Source of the DNA: a virus
IMG/VR virus record: IMGVR_UViG_3300046007_013028
Coordinates: 1 to 26,110 of that record
Direction: 5' to 3' (one strand)
DNA: 26,110 nucleotides
Shown here: positions 229 through 20,013 of the stretch, piece after piece
How positions within the stretch are numbered: the first letter of the stretch is position 1
Layout of the letters: each line of letters opens with the position of its first letter
Program-made: the position numbers and the translations under genes
Notes under the pieces: generated by a model
The model's database searches: none
The model's input: only the letters and a program-made list of their open reading frames with translations
What the model was told of the DNA's origin: nothing

Positions 229-1521
229 ATGACAGTAACACATAGAAGTATATCAGTCGCCTCAGAGGCATCTTTTGGCTCAGTCGACAGCTCAACCGGT
301 CTCCCATCTGCTAGCGGGCTTAGCTTCATCTCTTTACCATGCGAGCGTGATCCCATCGTCATCTATGGCGATGTAGTCGTAAATGAGCGAAGCGAGGGGC
401 GTGATGGTCCTCATGGGCTACCTCCAGAGCCTGACACAGTATGGAGCGGATCAAGTCGCGTGCAGAGACGAACTGGGCAAGTGCAAATCACTATCGACTT
501 TACTACAGTCGGAGCTGACGCCAATGCTTATGCGGGGACAGGGCTTGGCAAGCTTTTAAATGCAGGTTTTTTGACAAGTCTCCCACTCTTTACAAGTGCT
601 GATACTGTCACAGGCGACGATGTCAATTTTTTCACTCCCACAACCACAAACACAAATTACAAGATTGGCGGTATTGTGGGCAGTATTATTGCGGGGCGTT
701 GTGAGTACTCAGCAGTGACTAGCAACAACAGGGCAGGTGCAGGCAAGATCGGCGTTTCTCCTGCTTTTAGCGATGAGCCTGCCACCATTTATCCAATGCA
801 AACTTGGTATGTCCCCACCTCCACATCTAGCGGGCAGGTGGTGGAATCGCTTTGTTTTAGAGTCGATGGAGTCGGCTTTAGGACTTATGCTTATGGTTGT
901 AAGCTGGCATCTCTCAATATCAGCGTGACTAATGGTCGCCTATTGGGACAATTTACATTCCAAGCAGCTCTCATCCAAGACGATCACGCTAATGCGACCG
1001 GTCCTGTTGAGCCTGTTGTTTTAGGCGGTGCGACTCAACATTTTAGAAATGCTTATGCGGTACTTTCTAGCCCTGTGACATATTCTAGAAGCAATATCGC
1101 AGGCACTACAGGCGAGGAGCTAGATCGTATCGCTTTAGATGCTGAGAGTTTTTCATTTAATATCACAAACACACTCACCGCCAAGGGATTCTCAAACAAC
1201 ATCTTGACCATGTCCGACATGGAGGTAAGTAACGTTGATCTAGAGTGTACAATCACGCTCTCATCAGTAAAGAGCGATATCGCAGACGATTTTAAAGATA
1301 GGGTAGTCCGTCAGGTGTTAATAGGCACAGGACCAATCGGGAATGGCAAGGGCATGGCTTTATTTATCCCTGCAGGATATCTCACGGTCGATCCCAATAA
1401 ATACGACGTATCTGGTGAGATTGTGAAGCAAGCCTTGACCTATAAGCATACTCGATTCGGCGGTGATGTAGGTACTACACAGCCCGCAAATAGCCCCATT
1501 AGACTAGCACTAGGAATTTAA
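229..1521 (+). CDS. Major tail (tube) protein, probable
   Basis: This gene encodes 430 residues. It starts at ATG 229 behind a GAGGA ribosome site about 7 bases upstream. It is rich in Ser, Thr, Gly and Val with many short beta-type segments and has no membrane segment or signal peptide, as expected of a structural beta-sandwich protein. The assignment rests mainly on order: it lies directly before the frameshifted G/GT chaperone pair and the tape measure gene, where siphophages encode the tube subunit that polymerises around the tape measure. The length is above that of many tube proteins, so an extra C-terminal surface domain is possible. A decoration or minor tail protein is a less likely alternative. 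Confidence 0.7.
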   Translation: MTVTHRSISVASEASFGSVDSSTGLPSASGLSFISLPCERDPIVIYGDVVVNERSEGRDGPHGLPPEPDTVWSGSSRVQRRTGQVQITIDFTTVGADANAYAGTGLGKLLNAGFLTSLPLFTSADTVTGDDVNFFTPTTTNTNYKIGGIVGSIIAGRCEYSAVTSNNRAGAGKIGVSPAFSDEPATIYPMQTWYVPTSTSSGQVVESLCFRVDGVGFRTYAYGCKLASLNISVTNGRLLGQFTFQAALIQDDHANATGPVEPVVLGGATQHFRNAYAVLSSPVTYSRSNIAGTTGEELDRIALDAESFSFNITNTLTAKGFSNNILTMSDMEVSNVDLECTITLSSVKSDIADDFKDRVVRQVLIGTGPIGNGKGMALFIPAGYLTVDPNKYDVSGEIVKQALTYKHTRFGGDVGTTQPANSPIRLALGI

Positions 1522-1522
1522 T

Positions 1523-2035
1523 ATGCTTTCATTCTCCACCTCATCTCTCACTACCATCGAGGTAGCTATCACCTGCGACACCGCTTTAGATATGGCAGAT
1601 CAAGACAAAGTTCTATACCTCAAGGGGCAAAGAAACCTCTTGAAATGCAAGGACGGTCAATCGCCTACTCTATTTGTGCTAAAGGCTTTATCGCCTGCAG
1701 AGAGAGAAGAGGCAGAGGTAAAGGCTGGGGCATACACTAGGAGCGAACTTGGGCGTATGCTGTATCTAGAACAGCCTGACAGTGGCAAGGATAGAGCCTA
1801 TTGGCATGACTCACTGACAGAAAAAGAAAAGACAGCCCTAGCAGAGTATAACGCATATTTAAATCGTGTATATCAAGAGATGATCAAGGTTTCATGCGTT
1901 GAGATCAAGGGCGTCAATGGGAAGCCTTGGGATTTAATCCAATCAATCAAGCCCGATATTGTGAGAGTGCAGACAATTGGAGAGCTGGTTGCTCATATAT
2001 CAAATTTATCTCTCCTAGGTGAAGAGGGAAAATAG
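1523..2035 (+). CDS. Tail assembly chaperone, G-like short product
   Basis: This gene encodes 170 residues and starts at ATG 1523, one base after the tail protein stop, with AGGA about 8 bases upstream. It is mixed alpha/beta and charged, with a run of Leu, Lys and Glu codons, and has no export signal. Its place between the major tail protein and the tape measure is that of lambda G, which binds the tape measure protein and recruits tube subunits during tail assembly. The last two sense codons, GGA AAA, form part of a slippery heptamer directly before the TAG stop. This allows a minority of ribosomes to make the longer product described next. The function is inferred from position and the frameshift signal rather than from sequence similarity. 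Confidence 0.8.
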   Translation: MLSFSTSSLTTIEVAITCDTALDMADQDKVLYLKGQRNLLKCKDGQSPTLFVLKALSPAEREEAEVKAGAYTRSELGRMLYLEQPDSGKDRAYWHDSLTEKEKTALAEYNAYLNRVYQEMIKVSCVEIKGVNGKPWDLIQSIKPDIVRVQTIGELVAHISNLSLLGEEGK

Positions 2036-2463
2036 CAATCGCATCCTCAATATGGCTATCGCAAAATAAGGGGCGATCGTGGGGATGCGAGCAATGTAAA
2101 TCACAGCCAAGGCTGAGGGGACTGCGTGGAAATTGTGGCGGTGAGTTTAAGCGGGGCTTGCCTCATCTAGATGAAGATGAGCATGGCTTTTTTATTCCTG
2201 CGTATAGAGTGGCTCCTAACTGCTCGGCAGAGTACAGCGATCTAAAAATAAGGTCATGCCCTGTTGCATCAGCAAACCTCATCGCCCCCATCGCTCAAAG
2301 TTATTTTAGGCATATCAATGGCTTATTTGATTTAAAAAACGCGTATCCTAGCCCATCTTGTGCTATCGTAGAGGCAATAGATTTATTGCATCATCACTAC
2401 ACAGAGCTAAAAAACAAGATTGCTCAAGAGCAGATAGAGGAGGCACAAATTGGCAGAAAATAA
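1523..2463 (+). CDS. Tail assembly chaperone G-T fusion made by -1 frameshift
   Basis: A -1 slip on the heptamer at 2026-2032 joins the 170 G residues to a second open frame, read from 2032 to the TAA at 2463, giving about 313 residues. The T part has no stop between 2032 and 2463 and reads as normal protein from the slip point. It has a Cys-rich stretch (GCEQCKSQ, then GNCGG), a CPVAS segment, a YPSPS segment and an amphipathic C-terminal helix. A TTG at 2158 could start the second frame alone, but it has no good ribosome site and the upstream frame is already open and protein-like. In lambda, G-T bridges the tape measure and tube subunits and is absent from the finished tail; the same role is inferred here. 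The T end overlaps the tape measure start by 14 bases. Confidence 0.82.
2026..2090 (+). promoter_or_regulatory. Programmed -1 frameshift signal: slippery heptamer plus stem
   Basis: The heptamer G GGA AAA lies at 2026-2032 in the correct zero-frame phase (X XXY YYZ) and the next codon is the TAG stop of G. Lambda uses the closely related GGGAAAG. Six bases after the heptamer, TCGCATCC (2039-2046) pairs perfectly with GGATGCGA (2083-2090). Inside that loop ATCGC (2058-2062) pairs with GCGAT (2073-2077). Stimulatory structures normally sit about 5-9 bases after the slip site, so the spacing fits. Slippage efficiency cannot be read from the sequence. Confidence 0.8.
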
Positions 2464-4603
2464 AATCGAGATCGAGGTCGATGTTATAGGCATGGAATCG
2501 GCTCAAAAAAAGCTAGATGGGATAGAGGGATCAGCTAAGGGCATCGGCGAAAGCGTTAAGGGCGTGGGCGAGAGCTTCAAGGGCGTTGGGGCGGTAGTAT
2601 CCGCTCAGGGCGGGGCTATGGGCGAAGCCTTTGGAGCCCTTGGCGAGTCAGTAAGTGGCGTTGTCGATGGCGTAGGTCAATTTAGCGAGGCACTACAAAG
2701 CGGTGGCAAAATAGGCGTTTCATCGATCTTGAGTCTATTAGGTCCTATCTCTGCCATAGTCGGTGCATTGGCTCTAGCAGTCGAAGCGTGGCGACAATTT
2801 AGCGGTGCAGCTAAAGAGGCAGAGCAGATCGAGGCGGCGGTCAGTGCTGCAGCTGGTGATCTCACTGCAAAAATGGAGGAGCTTGCAGATAAGGGCATTA
2901 AAGCAACCTCTGATCAACTCAAAAGTTTGATCTCATTAAATACGGAAGCTCGATTAAAGCTGGAGATACTAAATGAGAAAAACGCTAGTTTAACCAAGGT
3001 TTATATTGATCAAATCAAAGCCGAAAAGGATTTAATAGCAGTTAAAAAGATATTAAATGGAGTCGAAAATTTATCAATGTTTGAGCGCGGTAATTTGGCG
3101 ACTGCAACAAATAAATTGGAGATAGCAAATAAGGCAGTAGCCAAGGCACAAGACGAACTAACAAGGGGATATGCTGACGCCCTTCCAGCGATAGAAAAAG
3201 CTCAAGAATATCAAAGAAATTTAGCGATGACTCAGCAGGAGGCGACAGATGCCTTGAAGGCTCAGCTTGAGATACAAAAGCAACATAATGACTTGCTATT
3301 GGCAACCTCTGATCTCAGCGATTATGAGAGGGGCATACAGGCTAAAGAGGATGAACTAATGGTTGATAGAGAGCTATCAGCCCAGAGAAACAAGAGCATA
3401 GCAGAGATACAAGCCCTCACAAAATCGCTAGAAGATGAAAATAAAGCTAGATCTGACGGAGAGGATTTATATTTAAAAGAAATCAAAAATCAAAAAGAAT
3501 TGCAGGCGTTAAAGGATGCAGAAATAAAGCGTTTAAAGGATGAATCTAAAGCAAGGGGTGATGCTTTTAGAGCAAGACAACAACAGATAATTGGCGAGCA
3601 ATCACAAATCAACGCCCTTAGAATACAGCTAGAAAAAGATGGGATTGATGAGCAAATAGCATTAGCCGTCAACACATATACAACTCAACAGCAATTAAAT
3701 AAAAATAATAAAAATCAACTAATAATTGCAGAGCTACAATATCAACAACAGTTAAATAGTATCGCAGAGCAAGAGATAGCAAGACAACAAGCGTCTCAGC
3801 TTGCTTTAGAGCAGTCTCAGCTTGCTAAAATCGGGGCTTTGCAAGAAGAGGCATATAAAGAGATTGAGATAGAAAAGACCAAGGAGCAGGCTAAAAAAGA
3901 TCTAACTGATAAAATCGCTTTGCTAGATATACAGCTCACACAGACAGGCTATGATCAGCAAATAGCGATGCTAAATAAGCAAATGGAGCTCGAACTTGCT
4001 ATCGTTGAAAAAGGAAGTTTGGCAGAACTGGAGATCAAAAAAAGATACCAGCTAGCATCAAAAGATGTTCAAGGCGAGTCTATGCAGATGTTAGGCGAAT
4101 TTGCTGAGGCGCAAACACAAGCCTTTAGCGCCTCATTGGCAACGGCGATCATGACGGGTGCGTCAGTGAAACAGGTCTTAAAGGAGACATTGACGGGCAT
4201 GGCAACAGAGGCTTTAACAAAGTCAATTTTCCATACAGCTGAGGGATTTGCGTCTTTGGCGTTAGGTCCTATTGGGGGGCTTAGTGCAAGCCAGCATTTT
4301 GCTGCAGCAGGGTTATTTGCAGGAGTCGCCTCTGTGGCGGGCTTGGCTGGGGCATCTATCCCAGCCTCAAAAGCTAGTGCATCAAGCGGGGCTTCGCCTA
4401 GTGGCATGGCACAGACTACACAGGTACAACGCCCAGAGGCTCAAAAATCCGAGCCTATGGTTTTTAATGTCAACTTCGCTGGAGCTACGATTTACGACAC
4501 AAAAGAGTCTGCTAAGAGAGCTCTCAGCGATGAGATAGTCAAGTATATAAATGAACCTCGTAGGGGTAGCCCACGATTGAGAGTACAAAATGCCCAGTTA
4601 TGA
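2450..4603 (+). CDS. Tape measure protein
   Basis: This gene encodes 717 residues. It starts at TTG 2450 behind a strong AGAGGAGG site (2436-2443) and overlaps the T frame by 14 bases. The N-terminus (about residues 20-85) carries a Gly/Val repeat around GIGESVKGVGESFKGVG, followed by a hydrophobic segment at about 92-115. A very long Ala, Gln, Glu and Lys-rich coiled coil fills the middle, and a second Gly/Ala-rich hydrophobic stretch lies at about 600-650. This is the usual build of a siphophage tape measure, which sets tail length and may help DNA cross the inner membrane. At the commonly used 0.15 nm per residue it predicts a tail of roughly 105 nm. No lysozyme or peptidase motif is visible in it. 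Confidence 0.9.
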   Translation: MAENKIEIEVDVIGMESAQKKLDGIEGSAKGIGESVKGVGESFKGVGAVVSAQGGAMGEAFGALGESVSGVVDGVGQFSEALQSGGKIGVSSILSLLGPISAIVGALALAVEAWRQFSGAAKEAEQIEAAVSAAAGDLTAKMEELADKGIKATSDQLKSLISLNTEARLKLEILNEKNASLTKVYIDQIKAEKDLIAVKKILNGVENLSMFERGNLATATNKLEIANKAVAKAQDELTRGYADALPAIEKAQEYQRNLAMTQQEATDALKAQLEIQKQHNDLLLATSDLSDYERGIQAKEDELMVDRELSAQRNKSIAEIQALTKSLEDENKARSDGEDLYLKEIKNQKELQALKDAEIKRLKDESKARGDAFRARQQQIIGEQSQINALRIQLEKDGIDEQIALAVNTYTTQQQLNKNNKNQLIIAELQYQQQLNSIAEQEIARQQASQLALEQSQLAKIGALQEEAYKEIEIEKTKEQAKKDLTDKIALLDIQLTQTGYDQQIAMLNKQMELELAIVEKGSLAELEIKKRYQLASKDVQGESMQMLGEFAEAQTQAFSASLATAIMTGASVKQVLKETLTGMATEALTKSIFHTAEGFASLALGPIGGLSASQHFAAAGLFAGVASVAGLAGASIPASKASASSGASPSGMAQTTQVQRPEAQKSEPMVFNVNFAGATIYDTKESAKRALSDEIVKYINEPRRGSPRLRVQNAQL

Positions 4604-5783: not shown

Positions 5784-6810
5784 CCTTACTCTGCCTCTAG
5801 CGGGCAACAATGCAAGAGTCGAGCCTGATGCTTTCATTGCAGGGAAAGATATCAGCGACCTACAGAGTCAACTCGGCAAACTTGGGCGACTGCAAAACTA
5901 TATCCACGCCTATCATGGGACAGGTGCGATCATAACTCAACATTTTGAGGATGGCATATTCTATTATTCATCAGCCACTTTGAGAGAGGTCTGCAGATGG
6001 AGAATCCCTGTAATATCAGCAAATCATAAGACGATAAAGATCACACTCAAGGGCACGGGGACAAACGGCAATGCGATCTTTACCCTCTCAAATAATAGCA
6101 GTGCTGGCTCAAAAAGTTTTACATTTAACTCCTCTAAATACGATCAGGGCTCGATAGCCTTGGCGTCTGTGAGTGCTGAGTATAGCTATCTAATCCTCGA
6201 GGTGCAGAACACGATACAGATCGATTATTTGTGTATCGAGTATCTACCACTCAGCTCACCACTAGCAGAAAGCAGAGTAAATGCGGTCTATATGAACAGC
6301 TTTTTTTACCCCTTCGGTGATGACTCCTTTGATGCTGATCAGCCTCTCTCATCAGCCCTAGGGCAACAACTAATCAACAATATCAGAGTACTGCAGAAAA
6401 GACCTAGGATGCTCTTTTGTGCTAGTGGGCTAGATCTTCCAGAGACGACAACAAGCCCAACTTTTGGGCTGGCACGACCACAAAAGGGGCTAACAGTCAA
6501 TGACTTATTTGCACTAAACACAAGCTTTATTTCATGGTATAATCGCAATCGATTGGGTTTTACATATAAGCTGGTGATGTATGTACAAAATGCCACAGCT
6601 CATGATTTTTCTTTTTCTGTATATAATAAACAGATCACGATCACTGCAGGCACTACAGCCCAGTGGCTCGAGTATGACATCGCAACAATCTTTAATGCGG
6701 ACGGCGTGGACGGCGATCTATCCATGCCACTAATCCAGTTCTCGCCTAGGATGACATACTTTTTGACAAACGCAACGCCGATCTTATCGATCTCTTTTTG
6801 GGGGGCATAA
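5773..6810 (+). CDS. Tail tip structural protein, unrecognised family
   Basis: This gene encodes 345 residues, with ATG 5773 overlapping the previous gene by 11 bases and GGAG 7 bases upstream. It appears to have two beta-sandwich halves. The first (about 50-160) runs from a YHGTG segment to a YSYLILEVQN strand. The second (about 175-345) opens with FYPFGDDSFDADQPLSSALG and holds an RPRMLFCASGLDLP stretch. No enzyme motif, membrane helix or coiled coil is visible. A short region resembles one in the next gene, as both have a helix followed by KR-x-(R/H) and a hydrophobic strand, so distant paralogy is possible. A role in the tail tip is inferred from lying between the tape measure and the hub. 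Confidence 0.55.
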   Translation: MTNSLTLPLAGNNARVEPDAFIAGKDISDLQSQLGKLGRLQNYIHAYHGTGAIITQHFEDGIFYYSSATLREVCRWRIPVISANHKTIKITLKGTGTNGNAIFTLSNNSSAGSKSFTFNSSKYDQGSIALASVSAEYSYLILEVQNTIQIDYLCIEYLPLSSPLAESRVNAVYMNSFFYPFGDDSFDADQPLSSALGQQLINNIRVLQKRPRMLFCASGLDLPETTTSPTFGLARPQKGLTVNDLFALNTSFISWYNRNRLGFTYKLVMYVQNATAHDFSFSVYNKQITITAGTTAQWLEYDIATIFNADGVDGDLSMPLIQFSPRMTYFLTNATPILSISFWGA

Positions 6811-7463
6811 TGGCAATAATACCAAGTACGACAATATTTGCTCCATCACCTAGCGAGGCAAACGCGGGCGTTCCTGTTCATAGTGCTGTCATGATGCTGA
6901 TAGCAGATCAAACCAATCATCTTGCTTTTGCCAAGGCTAAAAGGCATCAAATTGGTTTTGTAAATCGGACATATCCTAGGACATGGACGCAAAATCAGGC
7001 AGACTATACCACGGAGAGCTACTATGTCGATCAGATATCTATAGGCGATACTAATAGGGCATATACTCAAATCCTGCAGACAACAGCCAATTGCCGACAT
7101 ATCGTCTTCGCCTTTGCATATAGAACGCATGAAAATTTGGCAAGGTCGATCAGCATTACAGCCTTTAGAAATCCTCGCACGACTCAAGATATCATCGATA
7201 ATGGATGCCTTTTGAGCGTTGCCAATGGTCAGCTGTCGTCTACCTATGATCCCGATGGATCATCTAATTTTTGGAATCAGGCATTGATTTCTAGCGGTGG
7301 CGATATATCATCCACCTCTATAGTGCAGACGCTTTATCCTAGACCGCTATTTATCCCAGAGGCTTATAGAGGACAGGAAATAGGAGTAAAATTTGATTGC
7401 GTGAGAGTACGATTAGATAATGTTTGTCTCTATGAAGCTTTTGATGAGGTGATCAATGATTAG
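6810..7463 (+). CDS. Tail tip structural protein, small, unrecognised family
   Basis: This gene encodes 217 residues. I chose ATG 6810, which overlaps the previous TAA by one base (TAATG) and has a G-rich ribosome site a few bases upstream. A start 12 bases earlier is possible but lies closer to that site. The N-terminal third is Pro/Ser-rich and then helical (LIADQTNHLAFAKAKRH); the rest is beta-rich and ends in a strand-like segment (IGVKFDCVRVRLDNVCLYEAF). There is no signal peptide or catalytic motif. It overlaps the hub-like gene by 8 bases and is probably made together with it. Function beyond a tail-tip part is unknown. Confidence 0.55.
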   Translation: MAIIPSTTIFAPSPSEANAGVPVHSAVMMLIADQTNHLAFAKAKRHQIGFVNRTYPRTWTQNQADYTTESYYVDQISIGDTNRAYTQILQTTANCRHIVFAFAYRTHENLARSISITAFRNPRTTQDIIDNGCLLSVANGQLSSTYDPDGSSNFWNQALISSGGDISSTSIVQTLYPRPLFIPEAYRGQEIGVKFDCVRVRLDNVCLYEAFDEVIND

Positions 7464-10095
7464 TGACGATAGAACAGCTCGAGTTTATGGGCTAGAGATA
7501 GCAGGGCTTGCGACACGCTTTTATTATAGGGCATCGCCTTTTATATCCGAATCCATCGGCTCATCACCTGATGAGATATCATATACCGACCTCGACTGTA
7601 TAGAGAGTATCAGCGACTATGTGGCAGACCTGGAGCCTAGCGGTGGCATAGCAACCTATTCTCCCATAAGTGTAAGCCTAGTCATGGATAGGATGAGAGG
7701 CACCAATCAAGATCCTCATCGTATCTTTGGGCGTGTCATGCGGTCATCGTCTGTGTGGAGTGGTCAGCTGGTACAGGCTATCGCTAGAGATGATGATCAG
7801 CCGACTATCATAGTCGATAGTGATCCATCTCTCACATATCCCCATCTAGTCCACATAGGGGCTGAGTCTTTTTTGATCAGTGGTCAATCGCAGGTCGGGG
7901 ATGTGTATCATCTCGCTTGTGAACTTCGCATTGGCTTTAGGCAGATGCACGACATACGACTAGATGGAACAGATACGCCTATAGTGACAAGCGAGATAGT
8001 CGCTTGGCGTGGTAGACAGGCATCGATCTATTGTGCTAGTATGGATGACAATGCGATCATAACTGACAATCAAGTCGTCTTTCATGGCATGATCGAGCGG
8101 TCGCCCGATATTAGCGACCTGACCGCGATATCAATATCCATCGTTCCCATTTCTGCCATCGTTGACAACAGGGTGGCTGGACCTAAAAATAGCACTCAGC
8201 TAGTGCACGGATATCATTATTTTGACCAGTCGGCTAGATATAGGATCAATAATATACAAAAACTAGGCGATAACCGAGCATTTATCGGCGGAGGCTATTT
8301 TATAGAGTTTTCAAATGGGCTTTCGTCAACCGATGAAATCATGGACAAGATCAATTCAGTCTCAAGAGGTGCAGAGCCGGGAACTTGGTTTATCAAAAGA
8401 CAGGCAGGCGGATATTATTTAGTCTTGAATCCCCATAGCAACGCTAGCACAGTGCATCAGGTTTTTGCTGATGACATCAGCCTTGTAAAGCTGGATCAGC
8501 TATCTAGATCGGGCAACGCTTTGGATTTTAGATATATATCCGATGATCCAGTATGCCTAGATTTTGGCGTCAATTTCTCATCAAGTGAAGCTCCTATTAG
8601 GACAGCCAAGGATGAAAAAAGCTATCAATTCGACATAGATAGAGATCTAAATCTGTACTACTATCTATATCAGACAGAGACCTATGCAGAGTATCAAATC
8701 AGGGGCGTAGCCTTGGGCTGGTATGAATATGGAGAAAAATATTTGCTCGTGCAAGACTCTCTAGGTCTGCCCGCGTCCTATGATGGTACGCTATACGCAA
8801 TAGAAATCAAGGCTTATGGTAAAGCCTTTAAGGCGATGGCAAAGAGCGAGACTGCTGTATCAGTGGGCTATCTCATCGAGCTAGATCAGGACAATGTCTA
8901 TAATAGAGGCTTGCCCAGCTTTGGCGACTTCCTAGATTCTACCGAGAAAATTGAGATATCGAGAGGGCTTTTGATTGAGAATAAACCTGCTGGGCAGGTG
9001 ATGCTAGAGCTACTTGAAAGCGGGGGCGGTGGTGGCATAAATGGCGATTATGATTTGCACTTGGTGGGCTGTAATATCAGTCAAGCTTTTATCGATGAAG
9101 ACAGCTTTTTATCAAATCAAAGTGCTAGCAACATTAGGGATTGGCAATTCAATTTGAGCATCGATGATATCACGGCGAGGGACATTTTAGAACCTATGCT
9201 GAGAGTGATGGGCTGTGCGATAGTGATGGACAGATCGACGTTTTATCCACGCCTAAAATTGATTAGTGTTGGGCATGAGGCAGATGAAAATCAGCCCCTT
9301 ATCACAGATGATACTATGCTGATAGATAGCCCCATTTATTGGAGCGTCTATGAGGATATCATAACACAATTTAAATTTATTTATGACCTGCAAAATGATC
9401 AGCCCACTGAGAGAGTCATCAATAATTATGCTGCTATCAATCAGCTTGCGGGCGAGACTAGGAGCGAGGAATACAAGCTTTATGGACTGACTTCCGAGAT
9501 CGTAGGTGGGGCAAGAGCGGGGGATTTTCTGCAGTATTTTAGAGCTACCTATGCCCGCCTATTCCGACTGTATGGGCAGGCTATAAGGCAGTGGGTTTTT
9601 TCTATCACATCGGGGGCTAGCTTCAATCTTGACATTGGGTCGAGCCTAAGAGTATCAAGCGATTTTCTCAAGGGGTATAGCGATGACTATGGCGTGAGCG
9701 ATGGCGTTGGGCTGATAGTGTCCATGCGTCTATCGCTATTCGGTGAGGGCTGTGAATTGAAGCTCAACCATTATGGGCTCAGCTCTCCCACATGGAACGC
9801 ATCGGCTCGAGTCGACCAAGTGATCAATTCAACGACTGTCTCGATAGTCGTAGACCAGTTCTCAGCATCAGACATATCTTTTTTTAAGGTGGGCGATGCA
9901 GTCGTGCGATATACATGGGGGGCAAATGACAGTAAAACATCGCTCACGATTTCACAAATAAACGGGGCTCAGATTGTTTTTAGTGGTAGTCATGGAGCTA
10001 CGGCAGGCGATATCATCCAGCCTGCATCCTATACACTAGCAAGCACCGCCCACAAAAAACGGGCATACATAGATCGAGGATATAAGTATGAATGA
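7456..10095 (+). CDS. Large tail hub or tail-tip protein, probable
   Basis: This gene encodes 879 residues from ATG 7456, with GAGG 7-8 bases upstream. It is a long beta-rich protein without coiled coil or membrane segment. A Gly-rich loop (LLESGGGGGINGDYD, about 515-530) precedes a segment with DITARDILEPMLRVMGCAIVM, which resembles the mixed alpha/beta hub domains of siphophage tail-tip proteins where a helix packs on a sheet. It is the largest protein after the tape measure and directly precedes the fibre genes, the place of the central hub (lambda J or Tal-like proteins) that closes the tube and carries fibres. No peptidase or lysozyme motif is seen, so it is probably not a cell-wall-degrading hub. 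The subfamily is not recognised. Confidence 0.6.
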   Translation: MISDDRTARVYGLEIAGLATRFYYRASPFISESIGSSPDEISYTDLDCIESISDYVADLEPSGGIATYSPISVSLVMDRMRGTNQDPHRIFGRVMRSSSVWSGQLVQAIARDDDQPTIIVDSDPSLTYPHLVHIGAESFLISGQSQVGDVYHLACELRIGFRQMHDIRLDGTDTPIVTSEIVAWRGRQASIYCASMDDNAIITDNQVVFHGMIERSPDISDLTAISISIVPISAIVDNRVAGPKNSTQLVHGYHYFDQSARYRINNIQKLGDNRAFIGGGYFIEFSNGLSSTDEIMDKINSVSRGAEPGTWFIKRQAGGYYLVLNPHSNASTVHQVFADDISLVKLDQLSRSGNALDFRYISDDPVCLDFGVNFSSSEAPIRTAKDEKSYQFDIDRDLNLYYYLYQTETYAEYQIRGVALGWYEYGEKYLLVQDSLGLPASYDGTLYAIEIKAYGKAFKAMAKSETAVSVGYLIELDQDNVYNRGLPSFGDFLDSTEKIEISRGLLIENKPAGQVMLELLESGGGGGINGDYDLHLVGCNISQAFIDEDSFLSNQSASNIRDWQFNLSIDDITARDILEPMLRVMGCAIVMDRSTFYPRLKLISVGHEADENQPLITDDTMLIDSPIYWSVYEDIITQFKFIYDLQNDQPTERVINNYAAINQLAGETRSEEYKLYGLTSEIVGGARAGDFLQYFRATYARLFRLYGQAIRQWVFSITSGASFNLDIGSSLRVSSDFLKGYSDDYGVSDGVGLIVSMRLSLFGEGCELKLNHYGLSSPTWNASARVDQVINSTTVSIVVDQFSASDISFFKVGDAVVRYTWGANDSKTSLTISQINGAQIVFSGSHGATAGDIIQPASYTLASTAHKKRAYIDRGYKYE

Positions 10096-10656: not shown

Positions 10657-12942
10657 ATGGCAATTATTATTAAACCTCCTGTAAGCGGTGGCGGTGGTGC
10701 TGTTGATTCTGTGAATGGGGCTACTGGCGTTGTTGTTTTGACTACCGATAATATCGATGCGGGCTCAAATGCAGATCGCCAATATTTTACGAGTTCTATT
10801 CAAAGCGAGATCGATAGCAAAGCCGACCTAAGCGATCTTGATACAGTGCAGAGCAAGACGCTTTACTCCAACTCGTACTATGTAAACGAGGGCGTAAATG
10901 ACATTCAAACTGTAGTCAATACTATTGCAGGTGGAAGCGGTGCATATGCGATCTATATGTCAGCCGGCTCTTATAGTGGCAGTACACTCACGATCAGCGA
11001 TGCCCCTAGCGGTATGGATATCATCGCACCATATCATCCAACAAGCGGGCATATTTGCGAGCTAGTATCTAGAGGGCTGACTATATCAGGGGCGACCACT
11101 ACTCGAGTCAGGATCAGTGATCTCAATGTCGAGGGTGCATTGCTCATCGATGGCACACTAGGTCGCCACTATTTTAAAAACTGCATCTTCGATTCCACTG
11201 TGACAATCACAAATGCAACTGCTAATTTTGTGACATTTGAGCAGTGTTCTTTTGCTGGTGGGATCTCCATCGCTTCCAGTGTGACGGCGACTGTCTATTT
11301 TGATCGATGCGCCATGGGGAATCAGCTAGTTACCTCTTTGCGTGCAGGGGCTGGGTCGCCTTTATTGACCGTCCTCACAGAGTGCAGTGGTGTCAACGCA
11401 CTACAAGTGAATTTAACCTCAAATGTAGTTTTAGTCGGGCGTACAGGTTTCAATGATCTGTCGGTCGTGCAGTATCAAAATAGCGATAGCTATGTATATG
11501 ACCTAAACAACGGGCTGTCTACTTCATTTAGTGGATCATATACAGAGCTGAGAAATAAGCCCACGATTCCATCTGCATACACAGATGAGCAAGCAAGAGA
11601 TGCAGCAGGCACAGCCCTTGCAAATGGTACTCATACAGGGATCAGCTTTGTAAATAATGACGCTGGAGACACTATCAACGCGACTGTATCGCTATCTAGT
11701 TTTTCAACAGATAATCTGTCTCAGGGTTCAACCAATAAATATTTTAGCGACACTTTGGCACGAAGTGCATTTACTGCAGGGGCTGGCATCTCTATCACCA
11801 CAGGCACTATCGCATCTACCATCACTCAGTACACTGACGCTGATGCAGACGCACGAATCACCGCACAAAAAGGGCAAGCGAATGGAGTTTGTGAGCTCGA
11901 TGCAAATAGCCTCGTGCCAACCAATCATTTGCCACCCCTTGCGATTACCGATGTTCATGTGGTGGCAGATGCGACTGAGAGGCTAGCCCTTACAGTACAG
12001 GAGGGCGATGTTGCTATACAGACAGATGACTCGACATCTTGGATTTATAGCGGTACTGCATGGGTGCAGTTTAGCACTGGTGGTGCGGTTCTATCTGTCA
12101 ATGGACAGACTGGCACGGTCTCACTCGATACTGATGATATAACCGAGGGGGCTACAAATAAATATTTTAGCGATACCTTGGCTCGAGGTGCATTTACTGC
12201 AGGGACAGGCATCTCTATCACCACAGGCACTATCGCATCTACCATCACTCAGTACACTGACACGCTAGCAAAGACCGCATCGGTGGTCGATAGCATGGTG
12301 GGATCTCAGACCGATCAGGCTCCATCTGTGTCATCAGTCAAGGCATACTATACCGCAGGGACTGGCATCAGTCTCACAGGTGGCACAATAGCATCTACCA
12401 TCACTCAGTACACTGATGAGCTAGCTCAAGACGCCTCAGCCTCTCTGCTCACTACAGGCACTCATACAGGCATCAGCTACTCATATGTCGACGGCTCAAA
12501 TAAAATTGATTCTACCGTGTCTTTAGCTGGTTTTAGCATTGATGCTTTGAGCGATGTCGACACAAGCACAACGCCCCCGACTAGTGGTCAGGCTTTGGCG
12601 TGGGATGGGACAAGCAAGTGGATTCCTGCATCGATCACAGGTGGCAGTCGCCCATCATATACAACCGTCGCATCATTCCCATTGACTATCTCAGCCCCCG
12701 CCTCCAGCGTGGTAAAGGCGAGATATTATCTAAACAACGGGGCATCTGCTGTCACCGTTAATCTGCCCGCTGTCGCCTCATGCGATGGGCTTGAAATCGT
12801 AATTAAATTGTTGGGCACTGGCACAGCTACCATAGACGCAAGCGGAAGCGAGACCATTGATGGAGCACTGACATTTGCGCTCACTCTACAAAACTCGAGT
12901 ATCAATTTAGTCGCCACCTCTGCGGGATGGAGGATAGAATAA
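10657..12942 (+). CDS. Tail fibre or receptor-binding protein
   Basis: This gene encodes 761 residues. I place the start at ATG 10657, one base after the previous stop, with AGAAGGGCGG upstream; an in-frame ATG at 10600 lies inside the preceding gene and is less likely. The N-terminus has a Gly linker and SVNGATGVVVL, a motif common in phage fibres. Residues about 70-285 have short regular strands with periodic Asn, Thr and Ile like a beta-helix. Residues about 290-315 (FSGSYTELRNKPTIPSAY) and later segments (SVNGQTGTVSLDTDDI, EGATNKYFSDTLAR) are recurring fibre modules. The C-terminal 100 residues form a compact tip ending in GWRIE. It probably makes a trimeric fibre that binds the host surface. 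A domain repeated at DNA level is listed separately. Confidence 0.85.
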   Translation: MAIIIKPPVSGGGGAVDSVNGATGVVVLTTDNIDAGSNADRQYFTSSIQSEIDSKADLSDLDTVQSKTLYSNSYYVNEGVNDIQTVVNTIAGGSGAYAIYMSAGSYSGSTLTISDAPSGMDIIAPYHPTSGHICELVSRGLTISGATTTRVRISDLNVEGALLIDGTLGRHYFKNCIFDSTVTITNATANFVTFEQCSFAGGISIASSVTATVYFDRCAMGNQLVTSLRAGAGSPLLTVLTECSGVNALQVNLTSNVVLVGRTGFNDLSVVQYQNSDSYVYDLNNGLSTSFSGSYTELRNKPTIPSAYTDEQARDAAGTALANGTHTGISFVNNDAGDTINATVSLSSFSTDNLSQGSTNKYFSDTLARSAFTAGAGISITTGTIASTITQYTDADADARITAQKGQANGVCELDANSLVPTNHLPPLAITDVHVVADATERLALTVQEGDVAIQTDDSTSWIYSGTAWVQFSTGGAVLSVNGQTGTVSLDTDDITEGATNKYFSDTLARGAFTAGTGISITTGTIASTITQYTDTLAKTASVVDSMVGSQTDQAPSVSSVKAYYTAGTGISLTGGTIASTITQYTDELAQDASASLLTTGTHTGISYSYVDGSNKIDSTVSLAGFSIDALSDVDTSTTPPTSGQALAWDGTSKWIPASITGGSRPSYTTVASFPLTISAPASSVVKARYYLNNGASAVTVNLPAVASCDGLEIVIKLLGTGTATIDASGSETIDGALTFALTLQNSSINLVATSAGWRIE
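11731..12416 (+). repeat. Repeated fibre module in the DNA, three copies
   Basis: Bases 11731-11837 and 12154-12260 are near-identical 107-base copies, and a shorter diverged third copy lies at 12351-12416. They encode AFTAGxGISITTGTIAST plus ITQYTD; the third reads TAGTGISLTGGTIAST. The same reading frame is kept throughout. The shared core GCATCTACCATCACTCAGTA is identical in all three. The copies are spaced by unrelated coding sequence, so they are fibre repeats and not a CRISPR array. Confidence 0.85.
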
Positions 12943-13325
12943 TGTCATATAATATCGGGCGTCAAGTCACGCCCGCCTTAGCCGTCTGCTCGCTATCATC
13001 CTCTGCATCTGGGCTCGCCACTATCACATATATAAATGGCGATTTCACGCCATCGATTAGCGGGACTGATCTCACGCTAGAGGCTGGATACGAGTATTTT
13101 TTGATCACTTCGCCTGCTACTGTGTCGGCTGTGACAGCTACCTATGAGACGCTGATAGATGGAGTATCACAAGGGGCATATCCCATCAGGAGCACATCGC
13201 TAACTGGAAGCCTTGACGAGAAATTTGATAGCGTTTTAGCTACAAGCTCGACGCTCATACAGATCACAGCCAATGCCGCGTTAAGCACCAATTCAAGATT
13301 ACAGATTTGGAGGATGCCCCTATGA
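12942..13325 (+). CDS. Small fibre-like surface protein A
   Basis: This gene encodes 127 residues. The start is ATG 12942, sharing its A with the TAA of the fibre gene, and GGAGGA (12929-12934) lies 7 bases upstream. An earlier in-frame start would place the ribosome site inside the gene. The protein is Ser, Thr, Ala and Ile-rich with beta strands, and includes a TLEAGYEYFLI strand also found in protein C (13702-14208). It ends in LQIWRMPL. This build is typical of small C1q or jelly-roll-like domains that cap phage fibres or decorate the tail tip. A function as a separate receptor-binding or decoration subunit is inferred. Confidence 0.65.
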   Translation: MSYNIGRQVTPALAVCSLSSSASGLATITYINGDFTPSISGTDLTLEAGYEYFLITSPATVSAVTATYETLIDGVSQGAYPIRSTSLTGSLDEKFDSVLATSSTLIQITANAALSTNSRLQIWRMPL

Positions 13326-13702
13326 GCCATGATCCTAGCCAAGCTTTTGGCACTAGAAGCGTGCAAATCGATATCAACTCCGCATCGGTACTGAGCGATG
13401 ATATTACACAGCATACTGAGACATCTATCACCGCTAAGAGCGTATATTTTATAGATGTTAGACATATGTACTCGACAAATTTATCTGGAACGGGATGTAT
13501 CGCGTATAGGAACTTTAATAATTTTTTGCCCTTTGGAGGACAATTTAAAGTCAACAACGTTTCTTCGGGTAGTACATCATGCGATGAGTCGTATTGTGGG
13601 GTAAATGCGAGAAATACAGCATTGACGGTCTTTGTTAACAACATCAACGGAGGAAATATCACTGCGAACAATTCTTTTAAATCGCTGTGGAGGATACTAT
13701 AA
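13322..13702 (+). CDS. Small fibre-like surface protein B
   Basis: This gene encodes 126 residues. ATG 13322 overlaps the previous stop as ATGA, with GGAGGA at 13309-13314. It is beta-rich with many Asn, Ser and Thr residues and ends in SLWRIL. It is more diverged than A and C and lacks the LEAGY strand, but has the same size, position, start arrangement and Trp-Arg end. Two close cysteines (SCDESYC) might form a disulfide or metal site. It is probably a virion surface protein. The family is not recognised. Confidence 0.6.
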   Translation: MSHDPSQAFGTRSVQIDINSASVLSDDITQHTETSITAKSVYFIDVRHMYSTNLSGTGCIAYRNFNNFLPFGGQFKVNNVSSGSTSCDESYCGVNARNTALTVFVNNINGGNITANNSFKSLWRIL

Positions 13703-14208
13703 TGTCATATTTTGGATCAGAAAAGCGATTGCTCATGTCTATAAGCTCTCTATATAGCTCAGCTAATACGCAAAGTATTGGCATAACCGGGGTAATAGTG
13801 AGCATTTTTAATGGGGTCACTCCGACACAGATGACATCATCTATCGGGTATCCCACGATCAGCGTGTCAAGTGGGACTTTCACTTTAGAGGCGGGATACA
13901 AATATTTGATCGACTGTAGATTTAAAGTGAGCGACTCAACTCCTTCAGCAGGTGAATATGTTAGTTACTATTTGGCTGACTCTGCATCGGCTCAAATATC
14001 ATCCACTGGAATAACGAATATAACTACAGACTCATCAGCTGTTTTGAGTCAAGAGCGATGTATAGCCTATATAGATGCTACTGCCGGGGCTCAGACTTTT
14101 ACGATAAGAATGCAAAAAAATGCCGGCTCTGCAGTAACACTCAACTCAAATATCGACTCAGGTACTACGGGTTTTTTGTCGTATGTCCTGGTCAAGGCGT
14201 GGAGATAA
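13702..14208 (+). CDS. Small fibre-like surface protein C
   Basis: This gene encodes 168 residues. ATG 13702 shares a base with the previous TAA, and GGAGGA lies at 13689-13694. It shares FTLEAGYKYLI with protein A, the most direct sign that the two are related. The rest is regular beta strands with short Ser, Thr and Ala loops, ending in SYVLVKAWR just before the stop. Such single-domain proteins usually form trimers. It may be a fibre tip, a tail decoration protein or a second adhesin. The next gene is the endolysin. Confidence 0.65.
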   Translation: MSYFGSEKRLLMSISSLYSSANTQSIGITGVIVSIFNGVTPTQMTSSIGYPTISVSSGTFTLEAGYKYLIDCRFKVSDSTPSAGEYVSYYLADSASAQISSTGITNITTDSSAVLSQERCIAYIDATAGAQTFTIRMQKNAGSAVTLNSNIDSGTTGFLSYVLVKAWR

Positions 14209-14884: not shown

Positions 14885-16813
14885 ATGGCACAAAATAAAA
14901 TTTTAGGACAAGTCGCTTTTGCCACACAATACGCAAAAATCAAGGCAGATGGTAGCAGAGAGAGCTACGCTGACGCTATGGGCAGAGTCAGGGATATGCA
15001 CATCGAAAAATTCCCCCAGCTCGCAAAGAGGATCAATCAGGTTTTCAACGATTTTGTCATGCCTCAAATCGTATTCCCATCTCAGCGATCGACTCAATTT
15101 GGCGGTGATGCTATCAAGAGAAATAATATGCGATTGTACAACTGTACAGCCTCATATTGCGATAGAGTGAGATTTTTTGCTGAGGGCTTTTGGCTCTTGA
15201 TGAGTGGCTGTGGCGTCGGTTTTTCTGTGCAAAAGCACCACATCGCTCGCCTGCCAAGGCTGATCACAGCAGAGCAAAGAGACGCTCGAATCAATAAGAT
15301 TCATGTGGTGGCAGATAGTATTGAGGGCTGGGCTGATGCAGTGCTAGCCCTCGTATCCAGCTATATGCCCACAGATGAAGAGCAAGCAAAATACTGTATC
15401 AATTTTCACTATGATCGGGTACGCCCAGAGGGATCGCCGATCTCTATCGGTGGAGTCGCTCCCGGTCCCCAAGTGCTAAAAACTGCTATCGAGCGAGTGA
15501 AGGCTGTACTAGATCAGGCGGTCGATGATAGTCAATATAAAATTCGACCTATACAAGCGTTTGATATTTTTATGCACATATCTCATGCAGCTCTTCTATC
15601 GTCTCGCAGGGCAGCAACGATCGCTCTCTTTTCACCTGATGACGATGAGATGATGACTGCTAAAACTGGAGACTGGTGGATGACTCAGCCTCAAAGGGCA
15701 TATGCGAATATTTCGGCTCAGATTGATACATCATCACTCACAGAGAAAAAAAATATATTTGCCCAGATCGTGGACACTGCTCGACAGTATGGTGAGCCCG
15801 GTTTCTTTTTTGCTCATTCAACCGAGTATGCGACAAATCCATGCGGTGAGATCGGTCTTTATCCTCGTATCCTAGAGGCTGATGGCACATGGTCGAGTGG
15901 CTGGGCTGTCTGCAATTTAAATGAAATCGTCATCCCCAATATCATCGATAGCCACCACTTTATCCAGGCTTGCAGTGCTGCAGCATTTTTAGGCACTCTG
16001 CAGGCATCCTATACAGAGACAGGCTATCTCGGCGATGTGTCTAAACGCATCATAGAGCGTGATGCACTGATAGGCGTATCCATGACGGGCATCATGCACA
16101 ATCCCAAGCTGATAGAAAATAAAAATCTCCTGCAGATGGGAGGACTCATGATTAGAAATGAGAATGAGCTCACAGCAAAGGCAATCGGCATCAATCAAGC
16201 CCTGCGTTGTACGACTATCAAGCCAAGTGGCAACTCATCGACAGTGGCAGGCTGTTGTGCGGGCATCCATCCATATCATGCTCGATACTACATCAGACGC
16301 ATGAGGATAAATAAAATCAATCCCATATGGGCAGAAATTTTAAATAAATTGCCACAGGTCTGCGATGATAGCGATCCACAGGTGGGGATTGTGGCTTTTG
16401 CCTGTGAAGCTCCAGAGAAAGCGATCTTGAGAAAAGATATCGATGCTATCGAATTTTTAAACAAAGTTAAGTTTTTTCAAGACTACTGGGTGATGGCAGG
16501 TAATCGAGAGATCGAATCTCAAAAGGGACTGACTCATAATGTCTCAAATACCTGCACGGTCAAGAGTGGTGAGTGGGATGCAATCAAGGATCGCATCTGG
16601 GATCTTAGAAAGTCGGTTCGGGGCATCAGCCTATTGAGCGACTACGGCGATACTGTATATAAAAATGCCCCATACGAGACAAGCGACATCAGCGATGAAT
16701 ACTATAAAACGCTTTTAGGAGCTGATTGGTCTCTTGTCGATTTTAGCCTTGGGGGCTATGTCGAGAATCCACAGGCTGATCCAGCTTGTGCAGGTGGCGT
16801 CTGCCTGCTATAG
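14885..16813 (+). CDS. nrdJ: Adenosylcobalamin-dependent (class II) ribonucleoside-triphosphate reductase
   Basis: This gene encodes 642 residues from ATG 14885, behind AAGGAT. It reduces ribonucleotides to deoxyribonucleotides with a B12-derived radical. The sequence shows NPCGEI (Asn318, radical Cys320, Glu322), the active-site redox pair Cys87 (LYNCTASY) and Cys343 (VCNLNE), the loop TIKPSGNSSTVAG (444-456), and a C-terminal CAGGVC (Cys635, Cys640) that would hand over electrons as in the Lactobacillus leichmannii monomeric enzyme. It is shorter than that enzyme (739 residues), and I see no ATP-cone or separate small subunit. It needs no oxygen and no NrdB or NrdG partner. It lies after the lysis genes, ends 6 bases into the convergent RecT-like gene, and works with the dCMP deaminase and ThyX further right. 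Confidence 0.9.
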   Translation: MAQNKILGQVAFATQYAKIKADGSRESYADAMGRVRDMHIEKFPQLAKRINQVFNDFVMPQIVFPSQRSTQFGGDAIKRNNMRLYNCTASYCDRVRFFAEGFWLLMSGCGVGFSVQKHHIARLPRLITAEQRDARINKIHVVADSIEGWADAVLALVSSYMPTDEEQAKYCINFHYDRVRPEGSPISIGGVAPGPQVLKTAIERVKAVLDQAVDDSQYKIRPIQAFDIFMHISHAALLSSRRAATIALFSPDDDEMMTAKTGDWWMTQPQRAYANISAQIDTSSLTEKKNIFAQIVDTARQYGEPGFFFAHSTEYATNPCGEIGLYPRILEADGTWSSGWAVCNLNEIVIPNIIDSHHFIQACSAAAFLGTLQASYTETGYLGDVSKRIIERDALIGVSMTGIMHNPKLIENKNLLQMGGLMIRNENELTAKAIGINQALRCTTIKPSGNSSTVAGCCAGIHPYHARYYIRRMRINKINPIWAEILNKLPQVCDDSDPQVGIVAFACEAPEKAILRKDIDAIEFLNKVKFFQDYWVMAGNREIESQKGLTHNVSNTCTVKSGEWDAIKDRIWDLRKSVRGISLLSDYGDTVYKNAPYETSDISDEYYKTLLGADWSLVDFSLGGYVENPQADPACAGGVCLL

Positions 16814-18145: not shown

Positions 18146-19804
18146 TTAAAATCGCCTTGGTGTAGCCCCGTCAATGTCTCTAAGCCTCTGCTGTTTTTTA
18201 TCAAAATGGCATCGAGCAACACCAATCTCTCCGTGTCTATTTTTTGTGATACCTATCTCCATGACATCACGATCTGCAGTCTCTGGATTATATACCTCAT
18301 CTCGATATAGCATCATGACAACATCGGCGTCCTGCTCGATGCTTCCCGATTCTCTGAGATCGCTGAGAGTCGGGCGTTTATTGGGGCGACTCTCCACGCC
18401 TCGATTTATCTGTGCTAGTGCAATCACGGGGCAATCCATGATCTTGGCTAGACTTTTGAGCCCTCGGCTGATGGCAGCTATCTCCTGCTCTCTAAAATCC
18501 TTGTTTGCACTCATAAGCTGTAGATAGTCAACGATGATGAGACCGACCTGATCGGCTTGTGCCTCAGCCAATCGCTTCTCCAGAGAGAGATACTCTAGGA
18601 TATCCCACCTCTGCTCCTCAAAAACAGCATCGTCTATCTGCCTAGATATGAATGGAACGCCCTCTGCATCTCTACCTGACACATAGGCATTTTTATATCG
18701 TACTGAGTCGTATGTATAGCCATTGGCTTCGACTATAGGTCTCACTGTACGCCTGAGATGCTCAAGGCGTGGCATCATGTGATCTAGTCGTATATCGCTC
18801 TTTAGCCTACTGCATCTCTCTATGAGTGCATCTATCGATAGGCTGCTGTCATCAAAAATCTGCAAATTGAGATTTTTGATATAGTCGATAGCCTCGCCCA
18901 TCTTCTGCATATCCTGGGCGGTAGCACCAGCCATGCCACTGGTTAGCACATGATGGTCTATGCCTCCAACTGATGAAATCAATCTTTTCATTAGCTGCTC
19001 TTGTGGCATTTCTAGGCTGATAAAGATCGTCTTTTTGCCATGGGCTAGCCTGGCTAGATGCAGGGCTACTGCTGTTTTACCCATAGCAGGACGCCCCGCG
19101 ATGATATATAGGCATCCCCTTTGCAGGCGGGCATACTGATCTAGCTCTGCCAAGCCGGTGGATAGACCGGGCTGGAAATTTTGGATAGATAGAAGCGTCT
19201 TTGTCAACGCATCGCCCATGCTTGGCGCTGGTTTTGGTCGCAGTGAGTCGAGCTCACGCATCGCATCTCTCTCGAAATTTTCTGCTTCTGCGATGCCGAT
19301 TTCTTTGATTAAGTGCGTCTTGATAGATGATATACGAGCCATCGCCTTTTCAACAGTATGAGCCATGTATGTATCGCACTCGGCTTTAGCCATGACAGCT
19401 CCTACCCATAGAGGATAGGTGGCGGTCTCCATCAAAAAATTGAGGGCTTGATCTGGATTGTCCATGTCCGGCAGCTTCTTTATATTGCTAGAGTATCGAC
19501 TTTTATACTCCTCATAAATGGCTATGAAGCCGATCGGGGCATCTATACCAGCCTCTCTGTTTTTATGCCTGAGCCTGATAGCCATACGATAGATCATGCG
19601 TAGTGTATGATGCACAAAGAGGGCTTCATGTACTATGGATGAGAATATCGCATCCTGTAGGTCTTTGTCGTATGTGTGACATAGATTGATGATGATTTTT
19701 AGAGCTCTCATAGCATGAGCCTGATGCTTGAGCTCATCTGTCTCGCCTATGATAGCCTCAATGTCCGTTAGTCTCAAGACGTCTTTATATGAACCTGTGA
19801 TCAT
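18146..19804 (-). CDS. dnaB: Replicative DNA helicase, DnaB type
   Basis: This gene encodes 552 residues. I chose ATG 19804 because it overlaps the upstream gene as ATGA and has GGAG 7 bases upstream; a longer frame to 19951 lies inside the neighbouring gene. Residues about 1-200 are a helical N-terminal domain. The RecA-like motor has Walker A GRPAMGKTA (237-245), FISLEMP with catalytic Glu265, Walker B LIIVDYLQL (422-430), QINRGVE (465-471), SDLRESGSIEQDADVV (481-496) and the Arg-finger region KNRHG (521-525). It unwinds DNA at the phage fork as a hexamer. About 80 residues (roughly 338-415) sit between the helix after FDDSS and Walker B, where E. coli DnaB has only a short link. Confidence 0.92.
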   Translation of the reverse strand: MITGSYKDVLRLTDIEAIIGETDELKHQAHAMRALKIIINLCHTYDKDLQDAIFSSIVHEALFVHHTLRMIYRMAIRLRHKNREAGIDAPIGFIAIYEEYKSRYSSNIKKLPDMDNPDQALNFLMETATYPLWVGAVMAKAECDTYMAHTVEKAMARISSIKTHLIKEIGIAEAENFERDAMRELDSLRPKPAPSMGDALTKTLLSIQNFQPGLSTGLAELDQYARLQRGCLYIIAGRPAMGKTAVALHLARLAHGKKTIFISLEMPQEQLMKRLISSVGGIDHHVLTSGMAGATAQDMQKMGEAIDYIKNLNLQIFDDSSLSIDALIERCSRLKSDIRLDHMMPRLEHLRRTVRPIVEANGYTYDSVRYKNAYVSGRDAEGVPFISRQIDDAVFEEQRWDILEYLSLEKRLAEAQADQVGLIIVDYLQLMSANKDFREQEIAAISRGLKSLAKIMDCPVIALAQINRGVESRPNKRPTLSDLRESGSIEQDADVVMMLYRDEVYNPETADRDVMEIGITKNRHGEIGVARCHFDKKQQRLRDIDGATPRRF

Positions 19805-20013
19805 CTCATGGCTCCAAGCCATACAAGGCACACATACATAAAGAAAAATAGAATAGCGATTGATGAGACAAATAGCGCGATAGCGGTCAGCTCTCTTGCT
19901 ATCGATGGTGATTGTAATTTTGGTAGCTGTACGATGGGGAAATACCCGCATTGAGGGGCTTCATCTCTTGGGCTGTCATCTAGTATGGGGGCGTCGTGGT
20001 CTAAGTGAGTCAT
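19801..20013 (-). CDS. Small single-pass membrane protein
   Basis: This gene encodes 70 residues from ATG 20013 with AAGGAT upstream. The N-terminal 20 residues are acidic and polar, the middle has PIVQLPKLQSPS, and residues about 43-66 are a strongly hydrophobic helix (LTAIALFVSSIAILFFF then MYVCLVWLG). It ends in GAMR, with its stop overlapping the helicase start. The tail-anchored build places it in the inner membrane with the N-terminus probably in the cytoplasm. It sits between a regulator and the helicase in the early operon. Superinfection exclusion, membrane anchoring of replication or host interference are possible, but none is shown. Confidence 0.6.
   Translation of the reverse strand: MTHLDHDAPILDDSPRDEAPQCGYFPIVQLPKLQSPSIARELTAIALFVSSIAILFFFMYVCLVWLGAMR

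Follow-up and report, generated by a model that had tools for sequence, protein, structure and literature searches.

How does a phage translate a conserved reading frame that, at most of the loci where it occurs, lacks a start codon near its beginning? The question arises in a complete uncultivated virus record of 26,110 bases (the window), where an ORF for a gpG-like protein (G) gives way to a second conserved frame (T) in the −1 register. The locus is very probably a canonical programmed −1 ribosomal frameshift making tail assembly chaperones of the gpG/gpGT type. A first-pass annotation had proposed a −1 cassette of the lambda G/GT kind with a slippery heptamer and a stem; this is right in kind, as the heptamer is invariant among relatives and the stem covaries. 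The features of the region are as follows.

229 to 1521, plus strand: probable major tail protein, 430 aa, in the position before G; order conserved in L003 and L010
1523 to 2035, plus strand: G ORF in the zero frame, 170 aa, gpG-like tail assembly chaperone, ending Gly-Lys-TAG
2023 to 2463, plus strand: T frame (−1) with invariant cysteines, open from 2023; 143 residues after the slip
2026 to 2032, plus strand: slippery heptamer G GGA AAA, the candidate −1 slip site, in zero-frame phase
2033 to 2035, plus strand: zero-frame stop TAG, directly after the heptamer
2039 to 2049, plus strand: 5′ arm of the outer stem, pairing with 2080–2090
2058 to 2062, plus strand: 5′ arm of the inner stem, ATCGC, pairing with 2073–2077
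2073 to 2077, plus strand: 3′ arm of the inner stem, GCGAT, pairing with 2058–2062
2080 to 2090, plus strand: 3′ arm of the outer stem, pairing with 2039–2049
2450 to 4603, plus strand: tape measure protein, 717 aa (phrog_1538, tail length tape measure protein, E 1.9e-5)

The 3′ end of G reads GAG GGA AAA TAG and the heptamer fits the pattern X XXY YYZ. The annotated coordinates of GGGAAAA in zero-frame phase and of the TAG directly behind it hold, the −1 frame extends to 2463 as proposed, and the predicted fusion has the claimed 313 residues (170 + 143). Before the stop the two frames overlap by 10 nt (2023–2032), most of which the heptamer occupies. Since the T frame opens just 10 nt before the G stop, a change of frame is possible only at the heptamer. 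The slippery sequence thus has the form, the phase and the position inside a two-frame overlap that are expected of a −1 frameshift site. The window has a single GGGAAAA, against an expectation of about 2.1 copies over both strands, so the heptamer alone is unremarkable.

What is remarkable is its conservation. Viral contigs were searched with G, with a G alignment and with a T alignment, yielding 98 distinct cassettes that form 18 clusters at 70% G identity, the lowest pairwise G identity being about 43%. The search patterns were defined at the protein level and away from the heptamer (e.g., KAGAY[TS]R and [GA]YRVAP[DN]C), and cassettes cut off by a contig end were left out of the heptamer count. 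All 98 intact cassettes carry GGGAAAA where G ends; the cassettes are mutually related and these counts do not represent independent events. Relatives keeping both frames without the heptamer, which the first-pass annotation had named as a refutation, were not found among them. Codon usage does not account for the conservation, because GGA is the rarest glycine codon in the G genes of the relatives (90 of 688, 13%) and AAA makes up only about half (51%) of the lysine codons. G is 47–94% conserved in the aligned relatives. Two such frames resemble one broken gene, as would result from gene decay or a mistake in sequencing, but the identical break lies at the same base in many independent metagenomes and both frames are conserved as protein, which refutes this reading and leaves it a negligible probability.

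A second possibility is that T forms a gene of its own, complete with a start codon, and that the heptamer is incidental. Conservation of T begins with its first residues (GKIALASSVWL), where most loci have no start codon; in most of them none appears for at least eight codons. The first in the window, TTG at 2158, comes 44 codons in and sits far inside the conserved T domain. It does open an ORF of 101 aa, and in L044, L052 and L056 an ATG at T codon 3 or 4 (GGGAAAATGATG or GGGAAAATAATG) makes stop-start re-initiation possible. Against a separate gene, the residues before 2158, three invariant cysteines included, are conserved like the rest and mostly have no start codon, and the heptamer is invariant even in L044, L052 and L056. 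Independent initiation of T is accordingly very unlikely as the general explanation. In the sub-lineage of L044, L052 and L056, where the heptamer (at 3001) leads into the T-frame ATG, re-initiation could add to frameshifting.

The programmed −1 frameshift also calls for RNA structure about 5–9 nt downstream of the slip site (PMC7618472). The perfect 8-base stem of the first-pass annotation exists, TCGCATCC (2039–2046) being the exact reverse complement of GGATGCGA (2083–2090), and the outer stem is longer than had been claimed, with 11 bp including one G-U pair. It begins 6 bases past the heptamer, as annotated (spacer 2033–2038, 6 nt). The outer-stem fold has a minimum free energy of −24.0 kcal/mol (z −4.64) and none of 200 shuffles was as good. 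The 5-base stem noticed inside it is backed by covariation in relatives; minimum-energy folding favours a different inner pairing.

In the clade of the window (15 distinct sequences) both helices are kept, with 98.3% of cells paired (97.6% in the outer stem and 100% in the inner stem). Each helix contains one compensatory pair, found as AU 8, GC 6 and GU 1 in the outer stem and as UA 12 and GC 3 in the inner stem. No other pair in the clade is compensated, and an unsupervised scan ranks these two as its most strongly coupled columns. In the remaining clades this 5′ region finds its partner closer by, in a register that varies by sub-lineage. There all 30 sequences with the alanine codon GCG have the arginine codon CGC, against 3 of the 41 with GCC, whose usual pairing partner is GGC or GGGCG. 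Covariation in this larger set looks weak when scanned in a single fixed register, because the register differs between sub-lineages, and the matter is settled by the codon coupling together with shuffle tests. Scanned against synonymous-codon shuffles, both groups had more structure than the null only within the 60 nt that follow the heptamer, with a mean z of −1.96 in the clade of the window (n = 15) and −2.16 in 74 others, and none beyond −1.1 elsewhere. Column-preserving synonymous shuffles never reached the observed mean energy (0 of 200 per group), with z −13.5 for the larger group. The structure signal is weaker in the clade of the window itself (z −2.6, two compensatory pairs). As synonymous shuffles fail to match the observed folding, the hairpin is selected as RNA, in addition to selection on the protein. 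The spacer is 6 nt in 14 of the 15 sequences of the window's clade. In the other clades it is most commonly 7–8 nt (37 of 72), and the remaining values of 0–6 nt mostly reflect predicted stems that reach further toward the heptamer. The spacer in the window and the covariation among relatives thus place a structure at the distance at which a stimulator is expected, and comparison bears out the heptamer and the stem alike.

The hairpin also bears on whether RNA polymerase, and not the ribosome, slips on GGGAAAA to make the fused frame. Transcriptional slippage normally needs longer homopolymers and the run here is just four A. It would need neither the GGG nor a conserved RNA stem 6–8 nt downstream. 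The mechanism does have precedents in some IS elements and secretion genes (PMC5009743); for this locus it is highly improbable.

Another candidate stimulator, the Shine-Dalgarno-like AGGTGA at 2017–2022, was rejected, as the base before its GG varies, being A in 58 of 98, and the motif sits too near the heptamer for the dnaX arrangement. No conserved Shine-Dalgarno sequence was found among the cassettes at a dnaX-like distance upstream of the heptamer. In L177, a contig from a bacterial MAG, a distant homologue (HHalign probabilities of 98.7 for T and 22 for G) has C CCA AAA at 5989–5995, within one residue of the homologous place, and its G stop follows 27 nt after the heptamer. Structure directly after that heptamer was not above the null (z −0.91). 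A further candidate, L178 (Jiella), matches over a short stretch by chance and was discarded.

The stop adjoins the heptamer in 91 of the 98 cassettes (88 TAG, 2 TGA and 1 TAA), which might point to read-through of the TAG instead of a change of frame. However, the zero frame past the stop is short and unconserved (in L006 it stops within 20 codons) and it is the −1 frame that is conserved, so that read-through is scarcely credible. The isoleucine codon of the T frame that overlaps the stop is ATA in 78 of 84 isoleucine cases, compared with 26% of the other isoleucine codons in T and 14% in G. This excess suggests that an adjacent UAG is favoured, an argument weakened by the relatedness of the sequences. 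Seven cassettes (L066, L073, L077, L078, L082, L094 and L176) have the stop two codons (6 nt) later; the adjacent stop is hence not essential, and these cassettes provide a natural test of it. One speculative and rather doubtful extension is that the stop itself is a selected part of the signal, that the supply of release factor helps set the ratio of G to GT, and that the hairpin is kept as a shape. With the mRNA held by the hairpin, the ribosome would pause with UAG in its A site. If this were true, the hairpin would be preserved as shape and not as sequence, its pairing partner changing between lineages.

The proteins themselves have no recognized family. Neither G nor T gave anything significant in Pfam, PHROGs, NCBIfam or PDB-sequence profile searches. 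AlphaFold models were built from shallow alignments of 10–11 sequences. The model of G (pLDDT 70.5) has weak Foldseek matches in BFVD (E 0.03–0.4, none below 0.001), among them the two Molivia chaperones (E 0.03 and 0.04) and several more proteins annotated as chaperones, and the model of T (pLDDT 56) is too poor to interpret. T is cysteine-rich, as the first-pass annotation noted. Six of its cysteines never vary across the aligned sequences, and four of these (C21, C24, C37 and C78 in aligned numbering) are also present in L177. Their pattern would suit a metal site, and the T domain is possibly zinc-binding.

Gene order agrees with that of gpG/gpGT-type loci, running from the probable major tail protein through G and T to the tape measure protein, as it also does in L003 and L010. 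The tape measure protein is identified by its PHROG match. The product of 229–1521 has no Pfam, PHROG or cultured-phage match and its name is accordingly a tentative one, taken from position and order. Searches of cultured phages with tblastn gave nothing for G, T, these two proteins or the ORF at 7456–10095.

Elsewhere on the contig, 14885–16813 encodes a ribonucleotide reductase of the adenosylcobalamin-dependent class II type (TIGR02505, E 2.8e-47, below the curated cutoff of the model), accompanied by genes for ThyX, dCMP deaminase, DnaB and SSB. The DnaB_C match of the DnaB-like helicase (18146–19951, minus strand) is split in two by about 85 residues, possibly an insertion in the ATPase domain. 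At 12927–14208 lie three consecutive small ORFs whose readings start M-E-D-x-x-M-S. Their true starts are probably the inner ATGs, and the GGAGGA-like repeat before each is probably a ribosome-binding site.

The anatomy, conservation, covariation and gene order described above are observed; the occurrence and efficiency of frameshifting and the functions of G and GT are predictions. In the proposed −1 frameshift, most ribosomes would read GAG GGA AAA UAG and terminate, releasing the gpG-like protein of 170 residues. A minority would stall as the hairpin meets the mRNA entrance, the glycine and lysine tRNAs would re-pair from GGA AAA to GGG AAA, and translation would continue in the −1 frame to give the G-T fusion of 313 residues. 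By analogy with lambda, G may coat the tape measure protein while the T part may recruit the major tail protein. With such roles, the ratio set by the slip would matter for tail assembly.

The phenomenon itself is textbook. What is new is the protein family, how widely it occurs among uncultivated phages, and a hairpin, well supported by comparison, with an adjacent stop. Both frames can now be annotated as a chaperone pair in uncultivated phages that have no Pfam, PHROGs or NCBIfam family for them. The 98 distinct cassettes, with a fixed heptamer and differing stems, form a natural series that can be used to measure the effects of hairpin shape and of an adjacent stop on frameshift efficiency in bacteria.

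Frameshifting in the chaperone genes of long-tailed phages is well established (Levin 1993 and Xu 2004, as cited in PMC5009743), with efficiencies of 6–7% measured for two HK97-like chaperone genes (PMC3711429). Lambda G binds to the tape measure protein, and its T part brings in the tail tube subunit (PMC5009743). Lambda G/GT resembles the window in having G GGA AA(G) at the 3′ end of G, a gene between those for the major tail protein and the tape measure protein, a −1 shift into T, and G and T of similar sizes. It differs in that its heptamer is GGGAAAG and its G stop lies 15 nt later. The first-pass annotation had held that lambda works by the same rule. This is so for the kind of frameshift and not for the stem, since in the same synonymous-codon test lambda shows no structure above the null after the heptamer (z +0.91) and is thus no precedent for it. 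Heptamer plus a close downstream stem-loop, read by bacterial ribosomes, is found in E. coli dnaX and in the −1 cassettes of IS elements (PMC5009743), which involve other genes and from which the present family differs in having no conserved Shine-Dalgarno sequence at a dnaX-like distance. The Cutibacterium phage KIT09 chaperones have a slippery stretch beside a TAG stop, but its sequence (GGGGAATAG) is different and the site is a software prediction (PMC12733950). The identical heptamer GGGAAAA is reported for the tail assembly chaperones of TM4 (gp15/gp16; PMC4626039, in a statement citing Xu et al. 2004) and of Microbacterium phage Bush (PMC11749239), which are unrelated in sequence to the G and T of the window. 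In TM4 the stop comes 21 nt after the heptamer and not adjacent to it, and no structure above the synonymous-codon null follows in the same test (z −0.11). The suggestion that the cassette was undescribed must therefore be narrowed, as the heptamer was already known from TM4 and Bush and it is the gene family and its particular stem that are new.
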